From Isohypsibius dastychi (lineage: Eukaryota; Tardigrada; Eutardigrada; Parachela; Isohypsibiidae), in assembly GCA_034696485.1 (NCBI GenBank), contig JAQIWT010000333.1:1-23136 (forward strand): a stretch of 23,136 nucleotides of DNA. Direction: 5' to 3'. Under the pieces are notes generated by a model that searched no databases, was not told the origin of the DNA, and saw only the letters and a program-made list of their open reading frames with translations. This document shows positions 2,274 to 23,136 of this stretch, one piece after another (positions within the stretch are counted from its first letter, which is position 1; the number at the start of each line of letters is the position of its first letter). Both the position numbers and the translations under genes were made by a program.

Positions 2274-2407
2274 TTTCAGGGTTCTCAATAGCAATGTGTT
2301 TACAGTGTAGCAGTTGCCTTGGGTCACTAAAGCATAACTCGTGAAATCTCTTCGATATTAACTAATTATGCATATGTTACCATAAAGAATACAAGGTTAA
2401 AAACTAT

Positions 2408-3199
2408 CTAAGTTGAGTTCGAACGAGTCTTATTCAAGGGTGCTAATGGAGCTTTTGGTAGTGATGATTTCGTGGACAAGGATTCTCCCGTCTCGATGGC
2501 TCTGAATGCTCGGATGAGGAGTTCACGACGTTCAAGTGCACCTGGTTGCTCGGGATCAGCCAAAAGCTGACAGAGATTCGCGGCTCTCGATATCGCCGCT
2601 CGTGCCTGCGACAGTAACTTCTCTTGCGCCCTCCCCTTCAGGTAGCGACTGGCGGAGGATACATTTTTTCCTAGAAGATCCTCTACCGGGTTGATATCTG
2701 TCGTCGTGGTTGATGTCGAATCGCTGTCGTAGCCGCTTTCCTTCGGCGTAAACCATCGGCTGGACGGGCTCGAGTGAGATGTGATGTCCGGGTTTTTCCC
2801 GTTGAACCGCGTAATCGCTCGCAGATGATCAAGCTGAGCAGTCAACATCTCTTCGTTTTCCCCACACGCAGTGATAAATTTCTCCGTTTCAGAACGAAAA
2901 TCATGATGCAATGAGGCTAGGGTGGTCTTGTTTGATGCAGGCTTTTTTTTCGATTTCTTCTTATTCTTACGCTTGGGCACTTCCGAGTCGCTAGACATAA
3001 CCTCCTCACTAGGAGGTGCCAAGGCGACCGGGACAGGAACTTCGAACATATGTCTTCTCGCTGCAGCCAGTGCGGCGTCATTGCCCAACATTGTCGAGCT
3101 CAACAAAACGCGTCCGACCTCACCAACATGATACCGGGAAGGAGGCTTGCTCATTCCAGCCGCAGCGGCTCGCACATTGCTTCCTTGTTGCTGGTTCAT
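2408..3199 (-). CDS. Hypothetical hydrophilic protein with putative nuclear localisation signal
   Basis: A 263-residue protein from ATG 3199-3197 that I do not recognise. The N-terminus is rich in Ala, Pro and Ser. An acidic-serine stretch (about 65-73) is followed by a basic run KRKNKKKSKKK (76-86) typical of a nuclear or nucleolar signal. Two likely helical segments follow, about 97-130 and about 188-238 (rich in Ala, Arg, Leu), separated by a Ser/Thr/Asp-rich linker near 140-170. There are no membrane segments and no catalytic motif. It is expressed opposite to the membrane-protein gene (181-bp gap) and is divergent from the nucleoporin gene 1.2 kb away. The uninterrupted frame and coherent composition favour a real, mostly disordered protein, possibly in chromatin or ribosome biogenesis; that role is only inference from the basic tract. 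Confidence 0.7.
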   Translation of the reverse strand: MNQQQGSNVRAAAAGMSKPPSRYHVGEVGRVLLSSTMLGNDAALAAARRHMFEVPVPVALAPPSEEVMSSDSEVPKRKNKKKSKKKPASNKTTLASLHHDFRSETEKFITACGENEEMLTAQLDHLRAITRFNGKNPDITSHSSPSSRWFTPKESGYDSDSTSTTTTDINPVEDLLGKNVSSASRYLKGRAQEKLLSQARAAISRAANLCQLLADPEQPGALERRELLIRAFRAIETGESLSTKSSLPKAPLAPLNKTRSNST

Positions 3200-3828
3200 C
3201 TTAGGCTCACTATTTCAGAGCAAGCGAATACGAAGGGTACAGATCGACAGACTTCGCAATAAAATAGCTAATATTTTGGCAAACGTAGATCTGCTTGGAA
3301 ATAGGTAATTCAAGATCAGGCTACGCGGCCCGATTTGAAATGCCAAAGATGACGTTTAGAAAAAGTGAAAAGTGATTACTGGCCCTCTTTGATCAAGATA
3401 ATTGTAAATGAGTCAAACCCCTAGACCAAAACAAGATTGTTGGTGCTCAGGCACCGTTAGCAACGTTGTCACCCCAGCGACAAACAACGTCAAAGACAAG
3501 AAGTCGAATCGCCGCCAAGCACCCGAACAGATTCTCCACTCGAAACCAAGACCTGCGTAGGCTCCGACATGACACACACCAGCTTTCGAGCTTTTGGCGA
3601 ACGAATGCCCGTCGCTCTTAGACCCTACCGTTCAAGCACTTATCACGAGTTCCACCTCGAATTATTCCCTGAAACTTGACCGGCCTCCGTTGAGAAGTTC
3701 CAAATGCTGTGCGAAGCGACGATGATTCGCAGGTTGTAAATTTGTGATTTAGTTTGAACTCTTTCTTGATTTATTACATAATTTGCAAAGTCCCAGAGGT
3801 ACATTTGGCTCTCCCGCTCCTTCCCGGC

Positions 3829-3907: not shown

Positions 3908-4409
3908 TATGAATTTACAAAACAACAACTGGGAAAAGAGAGAAGAGAGGAATCCTGTTTCATCACACAATCATTAGGCAATCAAGGTTGTCGTTCGGGA
4001 GACGGAACGAGAATCAGGAAATCTCAACCGCCACAACCATCCGGAGGACGTGAGAGTTACCCGAAGCTGGACGGAGGAAACTCGTGGGCTTCATGTATGT
4101 CGCAGTTAGATTCACCACGCAGGCATAGTAGAGGCCTCTCTAGTACTCCCAAGTACTGTCGTCATCTTACGGGCTCGACCCGGAGTCGAACGTCGTCTAC
4201 GCGGGTCAGTCGATGTGGAGGCATTGCAACCCGAGATTTCTCACCCCAGACGTGTCCCGATATCCGTAGCATCTGTGTCGCGCTTCTATAGTTCGGTAAT
4301 CGTTCTCTCGCTGTTGCTGGGCCGTTTTGAAACGTAGGCTTGATCGGGGTGTTTGCAATTGTCTAAATTATAGTTGAAGTGCAAAGTTTGTTCGAGGCGC
4401 AAGAAAAAG

Positions 4410-7088
4410 ATGGACGGCGACACAACGATAAATTTCTTTTTTGGTTCGACGAGCAATATCACCAAAGGCAGGCATAGCGATGCAACATTCACAACAAAAT
4501 TGCGTTTTGACACCGACTTATCCTTCGTTCAGGATGAAGAATCATTCACACATCTTCAGGATGGCGAATTACCCAACGAGGTCGGGGTCATGGAGCAACC
4601 GAGTGAATTGGGTGGAAACCCTATGATACCATTTGTGGACGACGAGCCACCGTCGCTCGAGTCCAACGAACACGAAAGGTTTGCGAGTTCCCTTCGCGGA
4701 ATGGAAAGGTTTTGGCGAGATGAACAATATTCGAACGCACTGAGCAATTTAGTCGCAGCAAACTACGCGCATCTTGTTGTATTGATCACTATGCAGTCTT
4801 TAAAGGAAGGGAACGATGACAGAGGAATTGCTTGGCTTCGAAGGGAGCGAGATACATGGACACTTATAGAATTACTCAGAGGGAGTAAGATGGCGTCTCA
4901 GCCGACAGCAAAGGTCTTGGGCGCTCTGACGGACCGCGAGGTATTGGACTTTGAAGTCTCCCGTTCTCCACATGCGCAGGTTCTGCACACTCTAGTACGA
5001 TGGTGTCACTTGAGTGTGGCCGAAAAGGTTCCATCTGATGACAAGTTGCTTGGTGTTGAAATTCAGAAACGTTTAGGATCCTGCGAGGATGCATTTGATG
5101 ATCCGGCGGTGGCACAGACTGTTTATGCGGCGATAAGAGCGGGAGCCTACTACCAGGTCGTGAGGACGCCAGAGTCTGAGCAGATGGAGGAGCGGTTGAG
5201 GTCGATGGTTAACGAAAACCATCATATATTATGGCGTTTGGTAAGCTTCAATGGAGGAAAACCCTTTGACGTTGTGAGCAGGGTCGATAGGGAGGGCAAT
5301 CCCCATCGAGCGTCTTGGAAACTCGCATGTGCGAACCTAGCATCCCAAAATGGGGCGAGCGAGGAAGAGCGCAGAGTGTACTCTATTTTGAGCGGGATAA
5401 CCCAACCGCAGTACCCTGAAGTGGAGGATTTGTTGTTTTCATCTTTGAGAAGTCTGATGGAACAATGGTCAGACAAAGTGCTGCATCGTCACCACGTTGC
5501 TTGTGAGCAACTTGTGAGGGGCAGGACGCGAGGCGAAGCCGACTCTGAGAGCGAGAGGGATCTGCTAGCCCAGGCTGAATACGATTTCAAAATCGAATTG
5601 AAAAATCTCATTGTTGAAACCGTGCGACAGGCTTTTAATAAGAAGCCGCAGCATCAAGACAAAAGGAAGAAACAGAAAGTAGGAGAAGGCGGCGAGTTTT
5701 TCCAGAGGATCCAGTTGGATCTAATTTCAGAAAGCCCCCTGGAAGGTTTATTCGAGAGGGAATCATCTCTGCAACAGGAAAACGACCGCGATAAATTATC
5801 GAAATTGAGATTTCTGGCTCATCTCGCCGTCTATGCATATATGTCTACATTTGTTGACCAGTCGCGGTCGACACTTCCCATTGGCCAAGTATCACATGCG
5901 CTCAAGGATAAAGTCGTTAAACTGTACATGGACGCACTCACGTCGTCTGGTAAGAAGGAGTTTGACTTGGTTGCTCACATTACGCCCTACTTGAATTTTC
6001 TCACAGAGGAGGCCGACAAAGATGTTTACGTGGAACGCGCTTTGGTAGCAACGACTACTGCTTGGCCGGATGACGCCAGGCTAAAGTTTATAAGAGATGT
6101 TCGATCAAGGTTTATCGACCAAGCAAGACTGAACGATTTACTCTCCAAATTGAGATCAAGTTCATTCGAAGTATCCAATGTCGAGTCGAAAGAATGCGAG
6201 CAGAGGAGGCGCAAGTCTCTACCTTTAGAGATTGCCGATGCGTCATACTGGCGAGCTCTCTGGATTGAAGTCGAAATGTTTAGATGGTGCATCCTGGACG
6301 GCGACGTGGACTTGATAATCTATGCTGGGAATGAACTTGTGAGGCTATCAGTGCAGAGATATCTAAATGAGTCGGATGCTTCAAAGCGGGCGCTTGATTG
6401 GAAATTAGGCGAGTGCGTTCTTGGACTCATCGGGGACTTTCCCGCAATAGAGCACACGACGAAAAGACAAGAGATGGCAGAATTTGGCGCATGGCATAGA
6501 GCATTCCTCGCTTGGAAAAGTCTGGCCATGCTCGAGGCGCAGCTAGAGGAGATTAGCGCAACATCGAATTGGTATGAGCGTCAGATAGCAATGATTGGAG
6601 AGAGGGACCCAACCGGGAGGAGGGAGCTTGTTCATGCAAGAGATCAAGACATTGACAGATGGACAGCGGAGGACGACGTGCTTGGCGACCACAATCAAAA
6701 TGTTTGTTGGTTGGCGAATGTTTTGAGGGAAGATCTAGCGACTTGCCTTCGGATGGATTTTCCTCCTTCTGAAAGAATTCAATTGCGAGACAAATTTGTT
6801 GGTAAACTCGTAGAGGAAACGTTTCGGACACTCGCTCAATCCGCCAAGGAGACAACTAGGCTTAGACATCTTGCGCAAAAGGCTGGTTTGACCAGGATTC
6901 ATCGAAATATCATCAAGTTAAGCGACGCAGTGGCTTTGGAAACCGTTAAGCGCATGGGAAGGGATGGCGAGTTGGACATGTTCAGGGAGCAAACCAAAGC
7001 TGTTCTTCATGCTGTGGCAAGTTCCGCCAAAGCCCTTTTAACGTTCACAGATACGCCAGTCCGATACGCTTTTCTTGATGATGCATAA
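4410..7088 (+). CDS. NUP84: Nup84/Nup107-family nucleoporin
   Basis: Structural subunit of the Y-shaped Nup84/Nup107-160 complex that scaffolds the nuclear pore. The product is 892 residues, close to animal Nup107 (about 925) and longer than yeast Nup84. It is almost entirely alpha-helical, without membrane segments. Family resemblance is clearest at GNPHRASWKLAC (about 295-306) followed by a Tyr-containing LSG turn and a VEDLL segment, which parallel the conserved GNPxRxxWKxxC...YxxLSG region of Nup107. A helical repeat beginning LVAHITPYL (about 520) and a C-terminal region with an AFLAWKSL helix also fit. The N-terminal 90 residues are acidic and low-conservation; a lysine-rich insert lies near 417-430. 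The ATG at 4410 is chosen because the frame upstream has only non-ATG starts, and the context aaaaag-ATG-g is good. It converges with SelO, 194 bp between stop codons. Confidence 0.86.
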   Translation: MDGDTTINFFFGSTSNITKGRHSDATFTTKLRFDTDLSFVQDEESFTHLQDGELPNEVGVMEQPSELGGNPMIPFVDDEPPSLESNEHERFASSLRGMERFWRDEQYSNALSNLVAANYAHLVVLITMQSLKEGNDDRGIAWLRRERDTWTLIELLRGSKMASQPTAKVLGALTDREVLDFEVSRSPHAQVLHTLVRWCHLSVAEKVPSDDKLLGVEIQKRLGSCEDAFDDPAVAQTVYAAIRAGAYYQVVRTPESEQMEERLRSMVNENHHILWRLVSFNGGKPFDVVSRVDREGNPHRASWKLACANLASQNGASEEERRVYSILSGITQPQYPEVEDLLFSSLRSLMEQWSDKVLHRHHVACEQLVRGRTRGEADSESERDLLAQAEYDFKIELKNLIVETVRQAFNKKPQHQDKRKKQKVGEGGEFFQRIQLDLISESPLEGLFERESSLQQENDRDKLSKLRFLAHLAVYAYMSTFVDQSRSTLPIGQVSHALKDKVVKLYMDALTSSGKKEFDLVAHITPYLNFLTEEADKDVYVERALVATTTAWPDDARLKFIRDVRSRFIDQARLNDLLSKLRSSSFEVSNVESKECEQRRRKSLPLEIADASYWRALWIEVEMFRWCILDGDVDLIIYAGNELVRLSVQRYLNESDASKRALDWKLGECVLGLIGDFPAIEHTTKRQEMAEFGAWHRAFLAWKSLAMLEAQLEEISATSNWYERQIAMIGERDPTGRRELVHARDQDIDRWTAEDDVLGDHNQNVCWLANVLREDLATCLRMDFPPSERIQLRDKFVGKLVEETFRTLAQSAKETTRLRHLAQKAGLTRIHRNIIKLSDAVALETVKRMGRDGELDMFREQTKAVLHAVASSAKALLTFTDTPVRYAFLDDA

Positions 7089-7282: not shown

Positions 7283-9304
7283 TTACGAAGAGCATGACAC
7301 GGCGCACATCTGGTTCTCTATATCTCCAGGGCTGGGCGCATCATATTTAAACCCGTCCCCGGGGTCGATCCAGTATGAGTCCTCGTCCTTGTACGGGTTG
7401 ATGCACATTTCTAGGACCTTGTTAAGTTCAGCAAAGTCTCCCTTTTCTGCCTTTTCAATGGCCCGCTGAGCAACATGATTCCGCAGTACAAATCTTGGAT
7501 TTACCTCGTTCATTTTCTCCCTTCGTCTTTCCTTGATCAAATCAAACTCCGTGTATAGTCGCTGCATCCACCTGAGCCAGACCTCCTTATCGTTTCGAGC
7601 CTTGTCGCGATCCGTCCAGGAAGTCATTTCGAAATATTTGTCTAACCGAGCCATTTCAGCTCGGACGTCACCTGCGTTGAGGCCGGTCGCTCGCTCCACC
7701 TCGTCGGCTTTGCCCTTGTTAATTAATTCCATGAGCATGCGCATCTGTTGAGGATCGTATTTCGGTTTGGACACGAACTGCAGAGCCGAAACATCCCCCA
7801 AACACGGGGCAATGTACTGCCTGTAATCTTCTTCGATGCCCTGGAGACCCCCATCGCATTTCGCGAGGGCTCGGAAGAACTGAGTGAAATCAGCGGCGGT
7901 TTGGTTCATGGCATCAAACAAGTCACCAAACAGATTGCTCTCGCTCTTGCCGTCTGCTGTTGGTTGAATGCCGAGTTTCTGACACATTCTCTCGCGGTAC
8001 TGGTCATGGTACTCTTTCAGGTACTCGTCGCGAATAGTACTGGCAATCTCCTTCGGATCCTGGGTGAACACGTTCCCCGCCATAGCAAGCGTCTCAACGA
8101 GTTTCATACAGTTCCACAAGCATATTGAAGGCTGTTCCGAGTACGCATATCTTCCACCATCGTCCGATCGGTTGCAGATAAAGCTCAAATCCATGCGTTC
8201 CATAAAGCCAAACGGACCATAATCGAGCGTCTTTCCCAGAATAGACATATTATCCGTGTTCAAAACACCGTGACACCATCCTGTCGTCTGCCACAACGCA
8301 CTAAGTCTGGCGGTGCGTCGGGAAACCTCTTCCACAAACTTCTCGGGGGATGTGCAATCCGGGTAGAAATTCCTCATAGTGTAATCAACTAATTGTTTGA
8401 TTATGTCCTTGTTACCTTTCCTAAAGTTTAGCCCTGCGCGACCTGACATGGGATCAACTGGACGGGCAATCTCGAAGGACCCGAACCTCAGAAATGTCTC
8501 ACAGACACGAATTACCACCGCACATCGTTCCCGTCGCGGATGACCATCGTAAAGAATGTCTCTGATAACTGTTGAGTCTGATGTACAGATAGATAAAGCG
8601 CGAGTGGTCGGAATGCCGAGCGCATGAAGGTGCTCTGAACATAAGAACTCTCTAATAGATGATCGGAGGACCTTGCGACCATCGGCTTGACGAGAAAATG
8701 GTGTCAGACCTGCGCCCTTCCATTGCATCTCCCATCTCTCGTGCTTGGAGTTGACCACCTCCCCTATGTACATGGTGGCCCCGTCTCCAAGCTGACCGGC
8801 AAAGGTACCAAATTGATGACCGCAATAGCAGTGTGCTGCGGGTCGACCAAACGTCTTAACATTGCCTGCGAGCAGCTCAGAGACCTTGGTTAGAGGCTCA
8901 CTCTCAATGTCAATCTCCAGCAAATTGTGTGCAACATCCTTAGAGTAAGCGATCAGGTGGGGATTCTCCAACGGTGTGGGGTCCATTAGAGCAAATACGG
9001 CGTTGGGTACATCTCGCTGGGCTGTGTTGAATGAGGAATCCACCGGTAGCTCTCGAAGCGATCGGTTGTCGAAGATCAGTTTGGAAACCGGCTTCAAGCC
9101 TCCGGTCACCCCAGTGGCGGACGCGGCAGAACGGCTCATCATCTTTCTCGCAAGAGGCTGCATGGATTCGCCCCCGGATGTTACTCCCTTTGTCAAGGAT
9201 TGTGATTGCGGGCGGTGCTGTCGAGAAAGGTATACAGCGAGACTGCCCCCGAGTATGACCGAGGATATCAGAACAGCCGCAGCTGAGAGGTTGTTTATTG
9301 ACAT
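7283..9304 (-). CDS. SELENOO: Selenoprotein O homologue (SelO/YdiU pseudokinase AMPylase), cysteine form
   Basis: SelO enzymes have an inverted protein-kinase fold and transfer AMP from ATP to Ser/Thr/Tyr residues; in eukaryotes they are mitochondrial and redox-linked. The 673-residue product has family hallmarks in order: HQFGTFAGQLGDGA (about 163-176), QWKGAGLTPFSR with the conserved Lys near 196, RSSIREFL (about 214-221), HGVLNTDNMS (about 345-354) carrying the active-site Asp/Asn, and the DFG-like DYGPFGFM (about 361-368). It ends CAVSCSS; Cys671, third from the end, occupies the position of selenocysteine in animal SelO, so no recoding is needed. Residues 5-27 form a hydrophobic segment. 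A downstream Met48 precedes an Arg/Ser/Ala-rich stretch resembling a mitochondrial presequence, so the N-terminus may be anchored or alternatively initiated. RbfA lies upstream on the same strand. Confidence 0.96.
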   Translation of the reverse strand: MSINNLSAAAVLISSVILGGSLAVYLSRQHRPQSQSLTKGVTSGGESMQPLARKMMSRSAASATGVTGGLKPVSKLIFDNRSLRELPVDSSFNTAQRDVPNAVFALMDPTPLENPHLIAYSKDVAHNLLEIDIESEPLTKVSELLAGNVKTFGRPAAHCYCGHQFGTFAGQLGDGATMYIGEVVNSKHERWEMQWKGAGLTPFSRQADGRKVLRSSIREFLCSEHLHALGIPTTRALSICTSDSTVIRDILYDGHPRRERCAVVIRVCETFLRFGSFEIARPVDPMSGRAGLNFRKGNKDIIKQLVDYTMRNFYPDCTSPEKFVEEVSRRTARLSALWQTTGWCHGVLNTDNMSILGKTLDYGPFGFMERMDLSFICNRSDDGGRYAYSEQPSICLWNCMKLVETLAMAGNVFTQDPKEIASTIRDEYLKEYHDQYRERMCQKLGIQPTADGKSESNLFGDLFDAMNQTAADFTQFFRALAKCDGGLQGIEEDYRQYIAPCLGDVSALQFVSKPKYDPQQMRMLMELINKGKADEVERATGLNAGDVRAEMARLDKYFEMTSWTDRDKARNDKEVWLRWMQRLYTEFDLIKERRREKMNEVNPRFVLRNHVAQRAIEKAEKGDFAELNKVLEMCINPYKDEDSYWIDPGDGFKYDAPSPGDIENQMCAVSCSS

Positions 9305-11370: not shown

Positions 11371-12017
11371 GATACCTCTTGTGTGGAATTTTCTATCACT
11401 ATTATCGAATGTACTCGCCTGCAAGGTGTGGAATTTTTGAGATTGAGGAGACCAATCACGCCCAGCGCGTCACGTCGAGTCGAGTGTGCGAACGCGTCAA
11501 AACAACCGAGCATCTCGTCTTGATTATTTATCATGCGCAGAGCTACCAGTTATATGTAGTGCGAGATGAAGCGGGCGCGTCACTCACTCAGACATTGTCA
11601 CCGTGGTCACAGGTTTTTGTTTGATGAGCGGTTCGTAGCATCGCGTACTAGTATGTTCGTAACAGCCTGTTCAGTTCATCACCTCCTCCAGCACGGTCGA
11701 AAGCGTTGACGCTTGACCTATGCAGTTAAGGTATGATGGGATCCTTCTCCCAACTTTATTGTATGCATTGATGATTTATATATATGTATCAGGTCTTGCA
11801 CCGAGAGCCATCATACGTCCATGACAAAATTGTACCCTTCTCGTGGTTCTATAATACATAAACCGTATCCTCGTGGTGTCGATAGTCTGTCGCATCGACT
11901 CGGTGTGATTGGGGAGGAGGTCGTCCAAGGACTCGGAGTTCCAAGTCAGGACTACGCTAAACCTTGCAAACGAGACGAACGTACACGTCCTGGGCTGTTG
12001 AGAGAAACAAGCACGCG
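11371..12017. other. Divergent intergenic region, RbfA / MFS transporter
   Basis: About 650 bases holding the promoters of two divergent genes. A TTATATATATG stretch at 11776-11786, 230-240 bases before the transporter ATG, is the only TATA-like element noticed. The open frames inside lack support. Confidence 0.45.
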
Positions 12018-14123
12018 ATGATTCCGACGGTTGATTTGGCCGTCCACATGGGCGTCGACGATGTCGAGTCTGTCGACGATGACAAGGAAAAACAATCCGA
12101 CCAGGGTCTGGACAGCGAGCAGTCATCACCAGCATCACCAGCATCACAGCACGCCCAGGCGGAAGAGGCCAAGAGCAGGCTACGGGATATTCTCCTACGC
12201 AACCGTGACTACTTTGCGCAGAAGTCGCAAGTCGATGTTGCCAACTCTACCTCTGTGTTGAGCGCGCCTAGCAGACTCAGCCTTCAGGTGCACTTCCCCA
12301 CACTCAACAAGGAAAGACTTCATGAGTTCGAAAAGCTTCTTCACGCCAATGGCAGATACATGATTGTGCAACCCACATTCAAGAAGTTTTTGAGTCTCAA
12401 CTGTGACAAATTGCAGGTCGACACCAAGCGGGAACTATTGAGACAATTCACACTGCCTGACCTCATGGTTGTCACCTTACTGGCCACGGCACTGCTTCTT
12501 TCGACTCCCGACAGAGGTCACTTGAACTCACTCGCCGGTTTGATCATCTTACAAGATCCCTCGTTCAATTATAGTCCCCTTCGTCATGGCGAGTTGTTGT
12601 TCATCAGCTCCATCTCGACAGCCGTAGGTCGACTCGTGACGGGTTTCATCATCGATGCGAATGATCCCATTCACACGTTTGCCGCGTTTAGTCTCATATC
12701 TGCCTTTTTCGTTGTGCTCATTTCCCAGCTCCATGCCGTCACACCTGGATACGATCCCGATTCAAGGTATACGGCTTTTCTCATTTTGCAAGCTTTCAAT
12801 GTGTTTTTCCAGAGCGGTATCAACGCGAGTGGAGTCAAATTCCTTCATGATCATTTTCGCCCCAGCTTATATGGTCGTGCTCTTGTGGTATATGCAATCG
12901 GAGGTCGGCTAGGAAGCATCATCTCAAGTTTGGCCATGGGGAGCGTCGTCGACTCACCCAACCTCCAGTGGCAAGCTGGTTCTGTCATTGCGTTTGCGAT
13001 GTGTTTTGCATCTGTCATTCCAGTGTTCTTAATCAAATGTTTCCCACATCCATCCATTCATTCGTCCGCGCCTGACGAGCTTTCATTCCTCCAAAAACAC
13101 AAAACGCACGAGGCCACCGCGCCTCCAGCCCATGCTTTAAATATCGGATTTCCCACCTGCGATGCCAAGCATCGAAAAAAGACCAGGCGTCACTTGATCG
13201 AAGCTGTGAAGCGTCTTGCATCTTGGTGGCAAAGACGATCATTCGTTTTGATGGCATGCGCCAACGCAGGTATGGCCGTTGCAGTCTCGGGTGAAGGCTT
13301 CGAAGGAATTGCCTCTCTTTTCACTGGTCGCGTTTTTCACACACCCAGAGGAATTCCAACCGGAACGGTGACAATATTCTCGCATTTGGGTGCCATCTTG
13401 TCACTTATCGTGGGTGGTGTCTTCGTTGAGCGCCTGAACAGGCCTAGTCAGGCTCGAGTGGCACTTTCGATGACAATGATCTCATGTTTCGCTGCAATTG
13501 GGCTCATCGGTCTGTCGGTCGAAGGACAGAACAGTGTACCTCCTGAACCTAACATGAGTCTTGCTCCAGGGGCTCGAACCGTGTATTTCTTCATCGGTTT
13601 CGGTTTGGGGTATCCATTCTCAGTAACGGTTCAAAAATTCGCAATGAACTTTGGAGGCGCTCATGCTGGTCTTGTTTCTCAGACGCTCGGTTTCTTTGCC
13701 ACTGCAGTATGTGCTATTGCTGATGGCATCTTCGGATCAGTTGCAACTCGCAGTTTTCCGGCAGTTGGAGTCATTCTGGCAATATTCATATTCTCAGCCT
13801 GGCTCTTCTTGTTCCTGTTTGACTTTTTCGAATGGGTCGCTAAAATTAGGTTAAAGAACTTTGACCTAACAGCTCACATCGCAAAGATCATGCACGGAAA
13901 GGACATGGATTTTCCTGCCCAGAACAAACGAAGGCTCCTGCTTGTCGCCGCGAGCGAGTCGTTCCACACTGACATATCTCACCTTCTAGATAAGCGAGTC
14001 GACTCCACGCACCGCGGCTTGCACTACTTGTGGTCGGCTTTCACGTTCAGCTTAGCTCTCTTCTTCATATCTGCGTTGTTTCTTTCGTACTACTGGGTGC
14101 GCAACCCATCCGCGTTGTTTTAG
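12018..14123 (+). CDS. Major facilitator superfamily-like transporter
   Basis: A 701-residue polytopic membrane protein with the two-bundle pattern of an MFS carrier; substrate unknown. The first 145 residues are hydrophilic and acidic at the start. Hydrophobic segments follow near 147-163, 192-212, 221-241, 253-273, 287-310, 320-340, then a basic loop (about 342-405), then 409-436, 450-472, 481-502, 520-543, 551-575, 583-607. After a cytosolic stretch comes a thirteenth segment at 669-693. GRLVTGFIIDAND (204-216) resembles the loop 2-3 motif A (GxxxDRxGR) in degenerate form; the GRALVVYAIGGRLGS segment (286-300) starts helix 5. The ATG at 12018 is the first ATG of the frame; upstream codons in this frame include only non-ATG starts. 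The extra C-terminal helix would place N- and C-termini on opposite sides if all 13 span. Confidence 0.8.
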   Translation: MIPTVDLAVHMGVDDVESVDDDKEKQSDQGLDSEQSSPASPASQHAQAEEAKSRLRDILLRNRDYFAQKSQVDVANSTSVLSAPSRLSLQVHFPTLNKERLHEFEKLLHANGRYMIVQPTFKKFLSLNCDKLQVDTKRELLRQFTLPDLMVVTLLATALLLSTPDRGHLNSLAGLIILQDPSFNYSPLRHGELLFISSISTAVGRLVTGFIIDANDPIHTFAAFSLISAFFVVLISQLHAVTPGYDPDSRYTAFLILQAFNVFFQSGINASGVKFLHDHFRPSLYGRALVVYAIGGRLGSIISSLAMGSVVDSPNLQWQAGSVIAFAMCFASVIPVFLIKCFPHPSIHSSAPDELSFLQKHKTHEATAPPAHALNIGFPTCDAKHRKKTRRHLIEAVKRLASWWQRRSFVLMACANAGMAVAVSGEGFEGIASLFTGRVFHTPRGIPTGTVTIFSHLGAILSLIVGGVFVERLNRPSQARVALSMTMISCFAAIGLIGLSVEGQNSVPPEPNMSLAPGARTVYFFIGFGLGYPFSVTVQKFAMNFGGAHAGLVSQTLGFFATAVCAIADGIFGSVATRSFPAVGVILAIFIFSAWLFLFLFDFFEWVAKIRLKNFDLTAHIAKIMHGKDMDFPAQNKRRLLLVAASESFHTDISHLLDKRVDSTHRGLHYLWSAFTFSLALFFISALFLSYYWVRNPSALF
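12124..12147 (+). repeat. Nine-base tandem repeat in transporter N-terminus
   Basis: The unit CATCACCAG occurs twice and is followed by a partial third copy CATCAC. In frame it encodes an SPASPAS-type disordered segment. Repeat number may vary between strains. Confidence 0.7.
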
Positions 14124-16036: not shown

Positions 16037-17809
16037 ATGGGACAGTCGGGGTCCAAAGATGTGGAGATGATCAAGGAGGGCGAGTCAGTGGTGGATTTCC
16101 TCAGGAAAAATGCCTTCTTTCGGGACGTCAAAGATGTTGCCAGCCTCAAGAAGGCGGCAACCATGTTTGAGATCGTTCGGTTGAACCAACAGCCTGGTGA
16201 GACTAAGCGAATCATCCGCAAGGGCGATATTGGAGACTGCCTTTACATTGTAGGGCGAGGGCAGGTTGAGGTGTCTGCACCGGACGAAAAGGGCAACCGA
16301 ACGGTTTTGCGAAAGCTCGTACGACAAGACGTTTTCACGGAGATTGGTTTTATTCACAATGTCCCAAGCACCGTCGATATGGACGCTGTCAAGGAACATG
16401 TTGTTCTCCTCAAGCTCTCTAAGGGCACATACAACAAGCACAAGGGTGCCAAGTACATGAAGAATTTAACTGAGTGGCTTGATGCAACTGCCGGGCACAT
16501 GGTCTCGTCCTCATTGAAGAACGTTCCCATGCTTGCCGGGGTGCCGGAGGATAAACTCGCGACGATTGCAAAATTGTTCGAGCTAAAGGTATATGCCAAG
16601 GGAGAGCGCGTGTTCTCAGAGAGCGACCCAGGAGATGCGTTCTATATCCTCACCAAAGGTCGCCTCGTGGTGACCTCCAGCCAGTCGGGCCAGATTACCG
16701 AGCTGTCTACTCTCAAGGCCGGGCAGTCTTTTGGTGAAATCTCGCTCGTAGATGAACAGAATAGAACTGCAACCGTGACAGCGCTGGAGGACTCTACGCT
16801 ATTTATGCTGTCGCGAAATCAGTTCAAGGTGTTCCTGGATTTAGTGCCCTCACTTTCCGAGAAAATCAGGAAGAACATGCAAGAACGATCTGCTGTAAAC
16901 GTCGTGGCCAAGAAGATTCCCTTCTTTCAGACGCTCGAGCCAAACAAGCTTCATTTGCTAGGTACGATGTGCAAGATCCAAAGCTACCGCCCAGGATCTA
17001 CCATCATGATGGAGGGCCGAAACAAACCAGCCAAGTTTTTTATGATTACCCAGGGCACCGTTGAGGTCACCGTGCAAGACAAGATTATTCGCGAGATGGG
17101 TCCTGGAGAATACTTCGGCGAAATTTCCCTTGTGAGCGGCCGCGACGCCACAGCCACCGTAAAGGCCATTGGCAAGGATGATGTGGTTTGTCTGGAAATC
17201 ACTCGTGAAGAATTTGATGCGCTTTTCGTGGGTGAGCCTGGAGCATTAGCAGAGATTCAGATCAAAGTCCTTGGTAACTCAGTCGAGTTGCGTAATATCC
17301 TAGTGCATCCTATTGGAAGAAAGTATTTTGCAGAGTTCTCAAAGGAGCAGTTTGCGACCGAAAACATCGACTTTTGGAACTCAGTCGAAGAACTGGAGCG
17401 CATGGGTCGCCACCGGCTGCGTCCTTCGATTGCAGGAATTCTTCACGGTGTTGGTCTTGATAAGATAAATGAGCAGAAGCGCAAGACAATGGCCGAGAAG
17501 GTTGATGCCATCTACGAATTGTATGTGAAAGAGGATGCACCGCAAATGATCAACGTCAAGTCCAGTGTTCGCGACTCCATCAAGAAGCGAATAGAGAACG
17601 ATGATCTTGACTACGACATCTATCGCGCGGCGAAGTATGAGATCTACGAGCTCATGTCGTTGGACGTATTCTCGCGTTTCAAGCACAGCGATCTCTTCAA
17701 GAAGATGCTTTCAGAGATTGGCGTTTACGGGCAGATGGTTGGCGAGGACCTATCCGGTATCAAGTCCAAGCTAGACTTGAGGTCTCGGTCCATCGAGGAG
17801 AAGAACTGA
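16037..17809 (+). CDS. Triple cyclic-nucleotide-binding domain protein with C-terminal RGS domain
   Basis: A 590-residue putative signalling protein. Three CNB domains lie at about 25-140, 163-285 and 295-405, followed by an RGS domain at about 415-560. RGS domains speed GTP hydrolysis by G-alpha subunits; the family pattern is clear in FAEFSKEQFATENIDFW (431-447), the INVKSSVR stretch (505-512), YEIYELM (534-540) and FSRFKHSDLFKKML (545-558). The CNB phosphate-binding cassettes differ. CNB2 FGEISLVDEQNRTATV (232-247) retains Glu234 and Arg243, with Thr244 as in cGMP-dependent kinases. CNB1 has Ser111 and CNB3 Ala371 at the Arg position, so both are probably non-binding. MGQSGS at the N-terminus fits an N-myristoylation signal (Gly2, Ser6). 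There is no kinase domain, although the CNB pair alone resembles PKG. The ATG has a good aaag-ATG-g context. Confidence 0.93.
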   Translation: MGQSGSKDVEMIKEGESVVDFLRKNAFFRDVKDVASLKKAATMFEIVRLNQQPGETKRIIRKGDIGDCLYIVGRGQVEVSAPDEKGNRTVLRKLVRQDVFTEIGFIHNVPSTVDMDAVKEHVVLLKLSKGTYNKHKGAKYMKNLTEWLDATAGHMVSSSLKNVPMLAGVPEDKLATIAKLFELKVYAKGERVFSESDPGDAFYILTKGRLVVTSSQSGQITELSTLKAGQSFGEISLVDEQNRTATVTALEDSTLFMLSRNQFKVFLDLVPSLSEKIRKNMQERSAVNVVAKKIPFFQTLEPNKLHLLGTMCKIQSYRPGSTIMMEGRNKPAKFFMITQGTVEVTVQDKIIREMGPGEYFGEISLVSGRDATATVKAIGKDDVVCLEITREEFDALFVGEPGALAEIQIKVLGNSVELRNILVHPIGRKYFAEFSKEQFATENIDFWNSVEELERMGRHRLRPSIAGILHGVGLDKINEQKRKTMAEKVDAIYELYVKEDAPQMINVKSSVRDSIKKRIENDDLDYDIYRAAKYEIYELMSLDVFSRFKHSDLFKKMLSEIGVYGQMVGEDLSGIKSKLDLRSRSIEEKN

Positions 17810-18303: not shown

Positions 18304-19326
18304 ATGCTCTTGCGCACAATCGCAAGGCAGTCGCGGGCGGCGACGCGACGATCGTTGTCAACAACACTATCAACTGAACCGCCACCGACGGTGATCGAGG
18401 TCACCCCTGGCACCTCGAGCGCGACAGAAAAACAAGGAAATCCAAAGCTCTCTAGCTCACCGCCGCCTCATGTACAAGAGACGACGCATTTTGGAACCAA
18501 GAATGTTACCTACGACGAGAAAAAGAAGCTTGTGGGGAAGGTGTTCTCGAACGTTGCTGACAAGTATGACCTGATGAACGACCTTATGAGCGGGACGCTC
18601 CATCGGGTTTGGAAAGATTCGTTCGTAGAGGAGCTGGATCCGATCGCTTGGTCCGGCATGCATATGAAGGTTCTAGATGTTGCAGGCGGCACTGGAGATA
18701 TTAGCTTTCGCATAGCACAAAAGTGCCGAGAACGGCTCATCGGCGCTTCGCCTTATTCATCTTCTGTCAACATAACTGTGTGCGATATCAATCCAGAAAT
18801 GCTAAGAGTGGGTCGCAATCGACAACCAGATTTTGGACCTAATGTGAAGCTTGATTGGCTTGAAGGCGATGCCGAGACATTGGATGCTCTTCCGGATGAC
18901 GAGTTTGATCTGTATACTATTGCATTTGGTATCCGCAACGTGCCCAGGATCGAAAAGGCATTAGAAACGGCATTTCGCGTTCTAAAGCCTGGTGGTCGTC
19001 TGTCCGTTCTGGAGTTTTCTAAAGTCGCGGCTGGACCATTCGTTGAACAAGCCTACAATTTGTACTCTGATGCGATAATACCTGCCATGGGTCAGGTGGT
19101 TGCCAACGATGCGGATTCTTATCGATATCTCGTTGAAAGCATCCGCAAGTTTCCTCAGCAGAGGGAATTCGAGCGAATGATTCGCGCTGCGGGGTTTGAT
19201 TATGTCAGACATCGCAACATGTCGCTCGGCGTGGTCGCGATGCACTCAGGATTCAAGCTTCCCGTGCCCACAGAGGCCAAGTCCAGTGGCGAAGCAGAGT
19301 TGTCCAATGCAAAGCAAGAGCGATAA
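18304..19326 (+). CDS. COQ5: COQ5, 2-methoxy-6-polyprenyl-1,4-benzoquinol C-methyltransferase
   Basis: SAM-dependent C-methyltransferase of mitochondrial ubiquinone synthesis, the eukaryotic counterpart of UbiE. The 340-residue product starts MLLRTIARQSRAATRRSLST, an Arg/Ser-rich, acid-free mitochondrial presequence, followed by a low-complexity linker to about 62. The UbiE signature YDLMNDLMSGTLHRVWKD (88-105), SAM motif I VLDVAGGTGD (123-132), motif II acidic end CDINPEM (160-166), GDAETLDALP (188-197), FGIRNVP (208-214) and LKPGGRLSVLEFSK (227-240) are all present. The phylloquinone enzyme MenG of plastids is a close relative, but the presequence and COQ5-like signature favour the mitochondrial assignment. 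It converges with CSN6, 153 bp between stop codons. Confidence 0.96.
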   Translation: MLLRTIARQSRAATRRSLSTTLSTEPPPTVIEVTPGTSSATEKQGNPKLSSSPPPHVQETTHFGTKNVTYDEKKKLVGKVFSNVADKYDLMNDLMSGTLHRVWKDSFVEELDPIAWSGMHMKVLDVAGGTGDISFRIAQKCRERLIGASPYSSSVNITVCDINPEMLRVGRNRQPDFGPNVKLDWLEGDAETLDALPDDEFDLYTIAFGIRNVPRIEKALETAFRVLKPGGRLSVLEFSKVAAGPFVEQAYNLYSDAIIPAMGQVVANDADSYRYLVESIRKFPQQREFERMIRAAGFDYVRHRNMSLGVVAMHSGFKLPVPTEAKSSGEAELSNAKQER

Positions 19327-19479: not shown

Positions 19480-20451
19480 TTAATTCATCCTGCTTTTTGA
19501 AGGCCCCACAGGACGCGGTCCCTTGCCCTTGACCGTTCGCTCAGCCGACTTTTCGTCTGAGGCTCCAGGGGTCGGATACGCGATGAAGAACTTCTCTAGA
19601 ACAGCATTCAGAGCCGAAGTTTGTTTAGTGACAGAGGCAAGAAGTGATACCAAGAGCGCATCTGATAATTCGTGGTTGAAGTCCAGTCTTACCAGTGTGG
19701 GCTCGAGTGCAGGAAGTTGGTTGCAAATTGCATCGGCTTCTCTCAGAAGCTCATGATCAACTCGGATTTGGCCCGATTTAGTCATCTCGAGGAATTTTCC
19801 GATCACGACGATACGTGATTTAAGCATTTGAACGGCATTCTTCAAGGCCGCCATATGAGGATTTAGCGTGGAACTAGCCTCTCCTCCGACCGTTCCTCCC
19901 GATCGTTGTGTGACGATGTGATCAACTGTTATTCGTTCGGACTCTGTAGTACCAACTCGAGCAGGCACCTCCACAAAGGTTTGTGCGGGCTGGTCGTTCA
20001 CAATTTGCATTACTGTTTCATAAATTGTTATCGGAAGAACCTTTTTCTTGGCTCCTGCAGAGACCACTTGTTGTTGCTGCCTCACTGCGGCTTCGTCCAT
20101 CACAAGGACCAGGGGCGATTCGTTCAACTCCTGGAACTGTTTATGTACTGTAAGCATTTCCGCATCTGAGAGGAGTGGACCCACAAGGTACCATCCGAGA
20201 AGCTCGAACCTCGGAAACACAGCGATTGTCAAGGCGATCTTGCGCTTCAAAAGGTCGATGTTGACCTGAGTCCTCGCGGTATCCACCTTGGCCTCCATCG
20301 AATCGAGCACCGATACGTTAGTTCCATCTTGTATGCCAACAAAGGCGCCTATTGCTCGAACCTCCGTGGCAGAGTCGGCTTTTGCTCGCGTGAAGTGGTC
20401 GGCTATGTTGACCAGCACGAGCGGGTGCACCGTAACCTCGGACCGCGACAT
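19480..20451 (-). CDS. CSN6: COP9 signalosome subunit 6 (CSN6)
   Basis: Non-catalytic MPN-domain subunit of the COP9 signalosome, which removes NEDD8 from cullins; it pairs with catalytic CSN5. The 323-residue product starts directly with the MPN domain: VTVHPLVLVNIADHF (6-20), AIGAFVG (33-39), FELLGWYLVGP (82-92) and LNESPLVLVMD (109-119). At the JAMM position the active sequence GWYHSHP is replaced by GWYLVGP, so both metal-binding histidines are absent, as expected for CSN6 (MPN-minus). ERITVDHIV (172-180) and the helical bundle after 205 match the CSN6 C-terminal half and argue against eIF3f or the proteasome subunit Rpn8. A basic tail ends the protein. It is divergent from the Nma111-like gene. 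Confidence 0.93.
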   Translation of the reverse strand: MSRSEVTVHPLVLVNIADHFTRAKADSATEVRAIGAFVGIQDGTNVSVLDSMEAKVDTARTQVNIDLLKRKIALTIAVFPRFELLGWYLVGPLLSDAEMLTVHKQFQELNESPLVLVMDEAAVRQQQQVVSAGAKKKVLPITIYETVMQIVNDQPAQTFVEVPARVGTTESERITVDHIVTQRSGGTVGGEASSTLNPHMAALKNAVQMLKSRIVVIGKFLEMTKSGQIRVDHELLREADAICNQLPALEPTLVRLDFNHELSDALLVSLLASVTKQTSALNAVLEKFFIAYPTPGASDEKSAERTVKGKGPRPVGPSKSRMN

Positions 20452-20944: not shown

Positions 20945-23136
20945 ATGTTTTCGTCGTGCATGTGCCTCCCAGGCGTGACGGGGCCTGACAACTGGCCCGA
21001 GGTGCTTGATCGGGCAGGCAGAGCGGTGGTCATGCTCAAGATAAACACGGTGCGGTGCTTTGAGACCAACACCCCGGCAATTTCAATCTCGACAGGCTTC
21101 GTCGTGGATAAGAGACTAGGAATTATTCTCACCAACAGACACGTCGTACAAGCAGGGCCCATTGTGGGCAAGGCCTCGTTCGTAAACAATGAAGAGGTTC
21201 AAGTTGCTGCACTCTATCGCGACCCTGAACACGATTTTGCCTTTCTAAAATACGATCCGAGGGCTGTGCGGCATATGGCTGTCGGGGAGTTGCAATTGTA
21301 TCCAGAAGGGGCGATCCTCGGAGTGAGTGTTGACTAAATGATCCATTTCGGAATGCTACTAACTTTATCTGGTTGGATAGACAGAGATCCGAGTAATAGG
21401 CAGCGATGCCGGAGAGAAGCTAATGGTGCTTGCAGGTACCTTGGCGCAGGACTCAAGAGAGTGCCCGCAATACTCTGGATTCTACCAGGATGTTAACAGG
21501 TAAGCTTAGTTTGAACAGGTAGACGGGATATTAAGGCTAACTATTCGATGTAGCTTCTACTTAGCGTCGTCTTCATCCACGAGTGGTGGTTCGTCCGGTG
21601 CACCTGTTTTAGACTCAAAGGGCAGGGTGATTGGACTAAATGCAGGAGCGGCTGTTATGGCGGCCAGCTCATTCTTTCTTCCTCTCGACCGTATTGTGCA
21701 CGCGTTGAACGCACTCCGTGAGAATAAGCCAATTACAAGAGGCACTTTGCTTACTGTATTTAGCTTTGTTTCGATGGATGAGTGTCGCCGCTTGGGATTA
21801 ACCCGTGAGGACGAGAAGAAGTTGAGACACCAGCAAAGAAAACGCTCGGCAATGGGCGCCTTGGTAATTAGTCGAGTGATTGATGGCGGAGCAGGTCACA
21901 GTGCGGGGCTTGAAACCGGTGATATTTTGATCAAAATGGGCGGCTCAATGATCGCGTCGTTTGCCCAGTTGGAAACAGCGCTCGATGGAAACATTGGGAA
22001 AGAAATTACGGTTGTCGTGCAGCGAGGCAACAGCTTAGTCGAAACAGTCGCAGTTCCCCAAGACCTATCATCCTTTCTGCCTTCTCGTCTCGTAGAATAC
22101 AGCGGAGGAGTCGTCCACAATCTTGGGACGGTTCTATCATACCCGACGGGCGTTCACCCATCAGCGGTTGTCGTGGCGCATCCGGGCTACTCGATGGAGA
22201 AGGCCGGTATTCCAATTTTCAGTGTGTTAACTTCAATCGATGGAGAGCTCGTCAAGACTTTGGGGGACTTTGCCAGGATAATGGCCTCCAAGCTAGACCG
22301 ACAGCGAATCGTCATGAGATTTTATTCGTTGGCGAGAAAAGGGGTCGAACATTCGGCGATTGTCGTGGTTGACAGAAAGTGGTTTCCACTTAGAATAATG
22401 ATCCGGGAGGATGCGGTACTAATTCGGGGCATTACTTCGACTATGGGGTTATGGAAGGTGGAGAATATTGAATCAGTTGGTTCATCTGCACCGAGTTTAG
22501 AGGCAAGACCTTTCGACGGTACAAAGGATATGAATATCATGCTAGCCAATCCTCACGTGCAAGACGCGTCAACTTTACCCGACGGTGTAGCTACGCCAAT
22601 AAAATCGGTTGGACTGTTAACTGATCAGAACAAGCGAGATCAAGCCGCCGCAGGAGTTGGAAACGAGGTCATTCCGCTTGATACGATTGCAATGGATAGA
22701 CAAGTAAGTTCTTCTCGAATAACTCTTGACCAGGTCCAACAGGAGCGGAGTGTTTCCGTTACTGGTCTCAAAGAGGGCGAGAATGCTTTGAAAGGCGAGG
22801 CGAAGGGTCGCATTGAGGACTTGCTCGACGCGTTTGTTTATGTGAGTATACTGCCACTCAACTTGAACGTACACGAAGACTGACTTGAAAACCTGAAAAG
22901 ATCACCTGCGACTGCCCATTTCGCATCGACGGAATTGCAGATACCAAATTTGTGGGGTGTGGGGTTATCCTAGATGCCGATCTAGGTCTCGTATGGTGTG
23001 ATCGCCGAACGGTTGTGTCATGTTTGGGCGATATCCGAATGGTCTTCGGCGGTGTGCTCGAAATTGATTCGTGCCGAGTCGTTTACTTCCACCCCACTCT
23101 CAACTTTGGTCTTATTCGCTTTGATGTGAGCGATCT
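20945..23136 (+). CDS. NMA111: Nma111/Deg7-type double HtrA serine protease, 3' partial, four exons visible
   Basis: Exons 20945-21322, 21381-21499, 21554-22841 and 22901 to beyond the window. Splicing restores one frame (phases 0, 2, 0) whose translation follows the Nma111/Deg7 family across every junction. HtrA-like protease 1 has a complete triad: His66 in LTNRHVV, Asp97 in PEHDFAFL, Ser180 in SGGSSGAPV. Exon 2 supplies [14 protein letters not shown], a family hallmark. A PDZ domain follows ([11 protein letters not shown]... AGLETGDIL), then a second PDZ-like unit and a variable linker. Exon 4 opens the second protease-like domain ([16 protein letters not shown], then CDRRTVV in place of the catalytic His motif), which is degenerate as usual in this family. 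Yeast Nma111 is nuclear and pro-apoptotic; plant Deg7 acts in chloroplasts. No signal peptide is evident here, so location is open. Confidence 0.93.
21323..21380 (+). other. Spliceosomal intron 1 of the Nma111-like gene (58 nt)
   Basis: Donor GTGAGT (21323-21328), branch point TACTAAC (21357-21363, identical to the yeast consensus) 18 bases from the acceptor, and acceptor ATAG. Reading through would reach an in-frame TAA at 21335-21337. Removal joins GAILG to TEIRV as in homologues. Confidence 0.93.
21500..21553 (+). other. Spliceosomal intron 2 of the Nma111-like gene (54 nt)
   Basis: Donor GTAAGC (21500-21505), branch point CTAAC (21537-21541), and acceptor GTAG. The intron is in phase 2 and splits a serine codon. 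Read-through would hit TAA immediately. Removal restores the stretch leading to the catalytic serine. Confidence 0.92.
22842..22900 (+). other. Spliceosomal intron 3 of the Nma111-like gene (59 nt)
   Basis: Donor GTGAGT (22842-22847), branch point CTGAC (22880-22884), and acceptor AAAG. The frame otherwise stops at TGA 22881-22883. Removal joins DAFVY to ITCDCPF and opens the second protease-like domain. Confidence 0.9.

Follow-up and report, generated by a model that had tools for sequence, protein, structure and literature searches.

Well-studied organisms usually connect cyclic nucleotide signaling to heterotrimeric G proteins by way of kinases or cyclases, i.e., through separate proteins. 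The gene considered here lies in a window of 23,136 nucleotides (the whole stretch of DNA that was analyzed, i.e., positions 1 to 23,136, forward strand, of contig JAQIWT010000333.1 of the Isohypsibius dastychi assembly GCA_034696485.1; C333 in the genome searches) and encodes a protein, P0001, in which three cyclic nucleotide-binding (CNB) domains precede a regulator of G-protein signaling (RGS) domain in one chain. Among the systems that it resembles, Epac (RAPGEF) is a guanine nucleotide exchange factor (GEF) for a small G protein, in which cyclic nucleotide binding governs a G-protein regulator of the same chain. The CNB-RGS protein would follow the same principle; however, it is a predicted GTPase-activating protein (GAP) for the α subunit of heterotrimeric G proteins (Gα), and no GEF domain was found in its Pfam scan. 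The classical RGS proteins RGS1, RGS4, RGS8, and RGS17, which are not known to carry a CNB domain, share with it the RGS fold and the Gα contact residues, whereas the CNB-RGS protein adds an N-terminal CNB array and, compared with RGS17, an insert of about 22 residues within the RGS domain.

Protist type III cGMP-dependent protein kinases (PKGs), such as that of Plasmodium (PfPKG), resemble the CNB-RGS protein in carrying three or more CNB domains per chain. Two further likenesses are described in PMC6628679, namely that one CNB domain is degenerate while others are functional, and that the final CNB helix also opens the output domain as its first helix. Unlike these kinases, the CNB-RGS protein has an RGS domain as its output, with no Pfam kinase, and one intact CNB site instead of three. 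In the pathway from PKG to RGS2, RGS3, and RGS4 in mammals, and from EGL-4 in C. elegans, the nucleotide likewise stimulates RGS and thereby dampens Gα, according to PMC3708839; this pathway, however, involves two proteins and a phosphorylation step, whereas sensor and predicted GAP are here combined in a single chain. Profile, fold, and contact residues identify P0001 as an RGS protein, and its profile matches also make it a CNB protein, in which one site is intact. It is neither a PKG, since the kinase is lacking, nor a regulatory subunit of cAMP-dependent protein kinase (PKA). If the predicted function is correct, the protein would connect cyclic nucleotide directly to Gα shut-off, as a heterotrimeric counterpart of Epac and a one-protein counterpart of the pathway from cyclic nucleotide through PKG to RGS.

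Gene layout and homologues

An earlier note on this DNA had proposed an unbroken frame of 590 codons and placed an RGS domain at residues 415–560; both claims are borne out. The frame contains no internal stop, begins at the ATG at 16037, which is the earliest ATG/GTG/TTG downstream of the in-frame upstream stop, ends with the stop codon at 17807–17809, and is undivided in the homologues. In the Pfam scan, cNMP_binding (PF00027) matched three stretches (whole-protein E 2.2e-53) and RGS matched residues 418–557 (E 2.4e-24; 86.4 bits, cut-off 23.9), giving the order CNB-CNB-CNB-RGS. Beyond these, the scan contained only a sub-threshold Cupin match overlapping CNB3, and no kinase family appeared up to E 10. 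The CNB boundaries listed below were taken from a PF00027 search of the genome contigs.

16037..17809, + strand: CNB-CNB-CNB-RGS gene, P0001, 590 amino acids (single frame, Pfam, homologues)
16037..16054, + strand: putative N-myristoylation signal MGQSGS with Gly2 and Ser6 (conserved in intact N-termini)
16208..16429, + strand: CNB1, residues 58–131 (PF00027 match)
16334..16375, + strand: CNB1 cassette, residues 100–113 (FTEIGFIHNVPSTV), Glu102 present and Ser111 at the Arg position (alignment)
16586..16837, + strand: CNB2, residues 184–267 (PF00027, the top scorer of the 33 matches in the genome)
16730..16777, + strand: CNB2 phosphate-binding cassette, residues 232–247 (FGEISLVDEQNRTATV), with Glu234, Arg243, and Thr244 (alignment)
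16979..17227, + strand: CNB3, residues 315–397 (PF00027 match)
17114..17161, + strand: CNB3 cassette, residues 360–375 (FGEISLVSGRDATATV), Glu362 present and Ala371 at the Arg position (alignment)
17237..17302, + strand: predicted last helix of CNB3 (401–415), then first RGS helix (418–422) (AlphaFold2 secondary structure)
17288..17707, + strand: RGS domain, residues 418–557 (Pfam, fold matches)
17360..17365, + strand: Glu442-Asn443, equivalent to RGS4 Glu87-Asn88 (alignment to RGS17, RGS1, and RGS18)
17402..17467, + strand: insert of about 22 residues (456–477) compared with RGS17, with its own predicted helix at 463–469 (alignment, model)
17552..17554, + strand: Asn506, equivalent to RGS4 Asn128 (alignment)
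17651..17677, + strand: Leu539, Asp543, and Arg547, equivalent to RGS4 Leu159, Asp163, and Arg167 (alignment)

When about 5.8 billion proteins were searched, with limited sensitivity (the best 7,995 of the candidates sharing exact words with the query were scored), 117 proteins were returned at E ≤ 0.001. Nine of them carry both Pfam domains by precomputed annotation, namely P0002–P0009, which are 69–90% identical to P0001, and P0051 of Saprolegnia diclina (SDRG_12592; 24%). In P0083 of Aphanomyces astaci (DYB38_012251), three CNB stretches are accompanied by an RGS match that falls slightly below threshold (21.8 against 23.9 bits). Hereafter, P0001–P0009 are referred to as the nine close sequences, and P0051 and P0083 as the two oomycete sequences, eleven in total. 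P0001–P0007 align end to end with few gaps, while the initial dozen residues are missing from P0008 and the start is missing from P0009. BLASTP of P0001 against P0051 gave an E-value of 1e-23, with the main alignment (residues 108–558) spanning CNB2, CNB3, and RGS. At 24% identity, both Saprolegniales proteins have the domain order of P0001 and share with it the MGxxxS start, three CNB stretches, a C-terminal RGS-like domain, the Glu and Arg of CNB2, and a CNB3 without Arg; they differ in a CNB1 cassette that has diverged beyond reading and in the loss of the Gα contacts, save Leu539 in Saprolegnia.

The E-values and the conservation of the layout in other sequences exclude a chance occurrence. 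A fusion artifact, a mis-assembly, or two genes read as one are ruled out, as the layout is common to the eight close homologues and the two oomycete proteins, and a PKA or PKG truncated of its kinase is ruled out by the conserved RGS domain that closes the chain. A profile search with all eleven sequences, of limited sensitivity (the best 7,994 word-sharing candidates were scored), revealed no additional protein with both domains among the best 120 of 127 matches. A protein search with the RGS region retrieved seven proteins out of 285 candidates, all seven already known. Scans of viral_contigs and genome_contigs gave 37 and 83 pattern matches, respectively, with no relatives among them.

The layout had been put forward as undescribed, which holds for the open-licence literature searched, where no description of a CNB-RGS protein was found among the papers listed; the excerpts of PMC12223298, PMC12716839, PMC6033456, PMC5784254, PMC7576140, and PMC11061236 do not mention one. 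However, the layout is not unique, and homologues were already known as hypothetical proteins in databases, since BASA81_000656 (P0006) and SDRG_12592 both carry CNB and RGS domains. P0006, at 72% identity, is the nearest named homologue among the matches listed, and its record is labeled Batrachochytrium salamandrivorans. Among the matches listed, most of which are unnamed, no second protein is named as belonging to a chytrid, and another organism or a contaminant may be the source of the P0006 record.

The nucleotide site and the RGS surface

In determined CNB structures that bind cyclic nucleotides, a Glu/Arg pair is described as universally conserved, and a PfPKG CNB domain without both residues showed no cGMP binding by isothermal titration calorimetry (PMC6628679). 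CNB2 carries this pair, as Glu234 and Arg243, in all 11 sequences, the oomycete ones included, with one additional residue between the two in P0003. CNB1 keeps Glu102 and has Ser111 in place of Arg in all nine close sequences, among which the cassette is identical; in the two oomycete sequences, its divergence is too great for a confident alignment. CNB3 keeps Glu362 and has Ala371 in place of Arg in 9/9 close sequences, with residues 360–374 identical and Val/Ile at 375 as the only variation, and the two oomycete sequences, with Cys or Thr at position 371, likewise lack the Arg. Because CNB1 and CNB3 are without the phosphate-binding Arg, the protein probably has one nucleotide site of three, at CNB2, and is probably not a three-site sensor; CNB1 and CNB3, although lacking the Arg only, are probably non-binding. 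The three CNB domains of the earlier note stand by profile but probably not as an array of nucleotide sites. Judging from the alignment, CNB1 and CNB3 are not decaying, since their identities to P0006 (72/91 and 79/97, respectively) match the level of CNB2 (76/101). This conserved one-site-of-three pattern raises the question of why degenerate CNB domains are retained.

Position 244, directly after the cassette Arg of CNB2, is Thr in all nine close sequences and Ser in both oomycete ones. Thr at this place is a PKG-like residue, and the Arg-Thr pair occurs also in cAMP-preferring HCN channels; Thr244 would suit cGMP, yet it would not be diagnostic for cGMP over cAMP. Position 236, two residues past the cassette Glu at the place of PKA Ala202/326, is Ser in 11/11. 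The CNB2 cassette reads R-T-A, and the cAMP-type Arg-Ala in both CNB domains, which would mark a PKA regulatory subunit, is absent from P0001; the same genome contains intron-split, PKA-regulatory-like genes on C16 (L030) and C22 (L031), in which all four cassettes contain PRAAT. In a sequence search with the CNB part, the best match was Toxoplasma PCR12 (9ya0), followed by PKGs, with Epac chains also among the matches. In the full-length fold search, PKGs top the Foldseek list, and the CNB domains of channels and CAP come first by VIA-align. By fold, the CNB part and the RGS part each have matches among the chains of 9fqr, a structure of the bovine sperm axoneme.

The full-length fold lists comprised mainly CNB-containing chains, and the RGS domain was folded and fold-searched alone. 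Its model has a helical fold like that of RGS4 and RGS8; SNX13 is the top fold match, and the RGS-homology domains of axin and GRK and the Entamoeba RGS-RhoGEF are also among the matches. The Gα contacts of RGS4, E87, N88, N128, L159, D163, and R167, correspond to E442, N443, N506, L539, D543, and R547 in P0001, which are present in 9/9 close sequences. In the close sequences, the RGS surface is canonical. In the full-length AlphaFold2 model (mean per-residue confidence, pLDDT, 78.1; predicted template modeling score, pTM, 0.52), the last helix of CNB3 is followed by the first RGS helix within three residues.

At the N-terminus, the putative myristoylation signal noted previously is present, and Gly2 and Ser6 are found in all nine intact N-termini (9 of the 11 sequences), including those of both oomycete proteins despite their 24% identity; the excluded N-termini are those of P0008, which begins at an internal Met, and P0009, which is truncated. 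The conserved MGxxxS supports N-myristoylation.

Proposed mechanism and rival explanations

The assembly (30.4 Mb in 1,648 contigs) contains further components of the proposed pathway. A search for Gα genes in the same genome had been set beforehand as a check, and it yielded 15 exon-level matches, among them a pair of unbroken genes on C1462 and genes with introns on C506 and C1149. Switch I was read in four Gα proteins (the fragments on C309, C20, and C289 lie outside this reading), and the Gly needed for RGS action is kept in three of them, namely VKTTGIVE (C1149), RKSTTGIQE (C1462, minus strand), and RKATQGIAE (C506); one Gα of the assembly has a canonical RGS-sensitive switch I. PMC9283941 reports that RGS GAP activity was lost when Ser replaced this Gly in two Gα proteins of Naegleria. 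Class III cyclases gave 105 matches on 57 contigs, PDEase_I gave 16 matches, and class C G-protein-coupled receptors gave six, four of them above the cut-off. RGS gave six matches on four contigs and CNB 33 matches, and the two occur together only on C333, in the CNB-RGS gene. The presence of a radial-spoke gene, matched by five exons of a single contig, makes it probable that the organism has a flagellum, and it is probably not photosynthetic, since the light-harvesting family had no match in the assembly while a control genome matched.

We consider it moderately probable that P0001 is a myristoylated GAP for Gα, controlled by a cyclic nucleotide at CNB2 and relayed through CNB3. This proposal rests on the domain content, the conservation, the predicted fold, and the presence of Gα proteins, cyclases, and phosphodiesterases in the assembly, from which we infer ligand binding, GAP activity, membrane anchoring, allosteric coupling, and the sign of the coupling. 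N-myristoylation of Gly2 would place the protein at the membrane beside Gα, and cAMP or cGMP would bind to the single intact site. The ensuing helix movement in CNB2 would be relayed via the degenerate CNB3, the terminal helix of which is nearly continuous with the RGS domain, and would alter the access to the RGS surface or its orientation. Activation of the GAP by the nucleotide is slightly preferred over inhibition, because it would give negative feedback and would match the PKG-RGS precedent (PMC3708839). Given the many class III cyclases in the genome, negative feedback is the simplest logic, in which Gα signaling would raise the cyclic nucleotide, the nucleotide would switch the GAP on, and the GAP would switch Gα off. 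It is also possible, though somewhat doubtful, that an old eukaryotic device is represented here, in which cGMP or cAMP allosterically controls a Gα GAP in one chain, with common descent with the Saprolegniales proteins and the kinase of a protist PKG swapped for RGS.

Several points weigh against the myristoylated, nucleotide-controlled GAP, which is predicted from sequence and model. The CNB domain adjacent to RGS is the predicted non-binding CNB3, so coupling would need a relay, and at a pTM of 0.52 the full model does not place the domains reliably, with no autoinhibited state readable from it. The fold by itself would not prove GAP activity, as SNX13, axin, and GRK also match. In the oomycete relatives, the CNB2 site is kept and nearly all RGS contacts are lost (Glu442-Asn443 and Asn506 in 0/2; among Leu539, Asp543, and Arg547, only Leu539, retained by P0051), which suggests that the wider family can do without GAP activity; the CNB-RGS family may have a role beyond it. 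With regard to the partners, the plus-strand Gα of C1462 has Val in place of the RGS-sensitive switch I Gly, and in the Gα of C506 the second Thr of switch I is replaced by Gln. Neither N-myristoyltransferase nor Gγ had a match in the assembly, and as the control genomes were likewise without a match for either, absence is not demonstrated.

Alternatively, the RGS domain could be a constitutive GAP, for which the CNB array and the myristoyl group would serve as a localization or scaffold module, e.g., at a flagellar membrane, so that the nucleotide would shift the address of the protein and not its rate. The canonical RGS profile and contacts, the conserved MGxxxS, and the probable flagellum are consistent with this, and the conservation of two CNB domains without the ligand Arg at the level of CNB2 suits a binding or scaffold role; moreover, PKG acts on mammalian RGS proteins partly via membrane relocation, as described in PMC3708839. 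However, the almost linker-free junction of CNB3 and RGS in the model favors direct coupling, and we regard a pure localization role as unlikely. A structural role, e.g., as a component of the flagellar apparatus, with both folds serving as binding modules that neither take up a ligand nor act as a GAP, would accommodate the axoneme chains of 9fqr that match both parts, PCR12 as the top CNB sequence match, the radial-spoke gene, and the lost contacts of the oomycete relatives; it is nevertheless quite improbable, since the Glu/Arg of CNB2 in 11/11 sequences and the RGS contacts in 9/9 are hard to explain without ligand and Gα binding.

The flow could also be reversed, such that an active Gα on the RGS domain alters or recruits the CNB array and the protein is a Gα effector, akin to RGS-RhoGEF proteins. 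RGS domains are effector modules in the Naegleria RGS-RhoGEF (PMC9283941), and the Entamoeba RGS-RhoGEF is among the fold matches of the RGS domain; yet Pfam finds no catalytic output domain in the chain, which makes an effector role very improbable. Finally, a CNB2 ligand other than cAMP or cGMP, such as the nucleosides taken by the CNB domains of kinetoplastid PKA (PMC10959531), is extremely unlikely, as the kinetoplastid proteins replace the Arg and have Glu at the place of PKA Ala202/326 (PMC10959531), whereas Arg243 is kept here and Ser236 occurs in 11/11.

Related loci and neighboring genes

The Gα pair on C1462 is arranged tail to tail (L032; 1014–2102 on the plus strand and 2297–3658 on the minus strand), the minus-strand protein being the longer at 453 amino acids. 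The class III cyclase set is large and recalls the many cyclases of Naegleria described in PMC9283941. Two adjacent RGS genes lie on C1317 (L034; 780–1334 and 3216–4010, + strand); downstream of each, hydrophobic stretches resembling membrane segments continue in the same frame. Within the window, the CNB-RGS gene is flanked by ordinary eukaryotic genes; its neighbors encode Nup84/107 (4374–7088), SelO (7283–9304), an MFS transporter (11964–14123), COQ5 (18304–19326), a JAB/MitMem_reg protein that looks like eIF3f (19480–20451), and trypsin-like and PDZ pieces resembling an HtrA protease (20945–21337 and 21627–22883).
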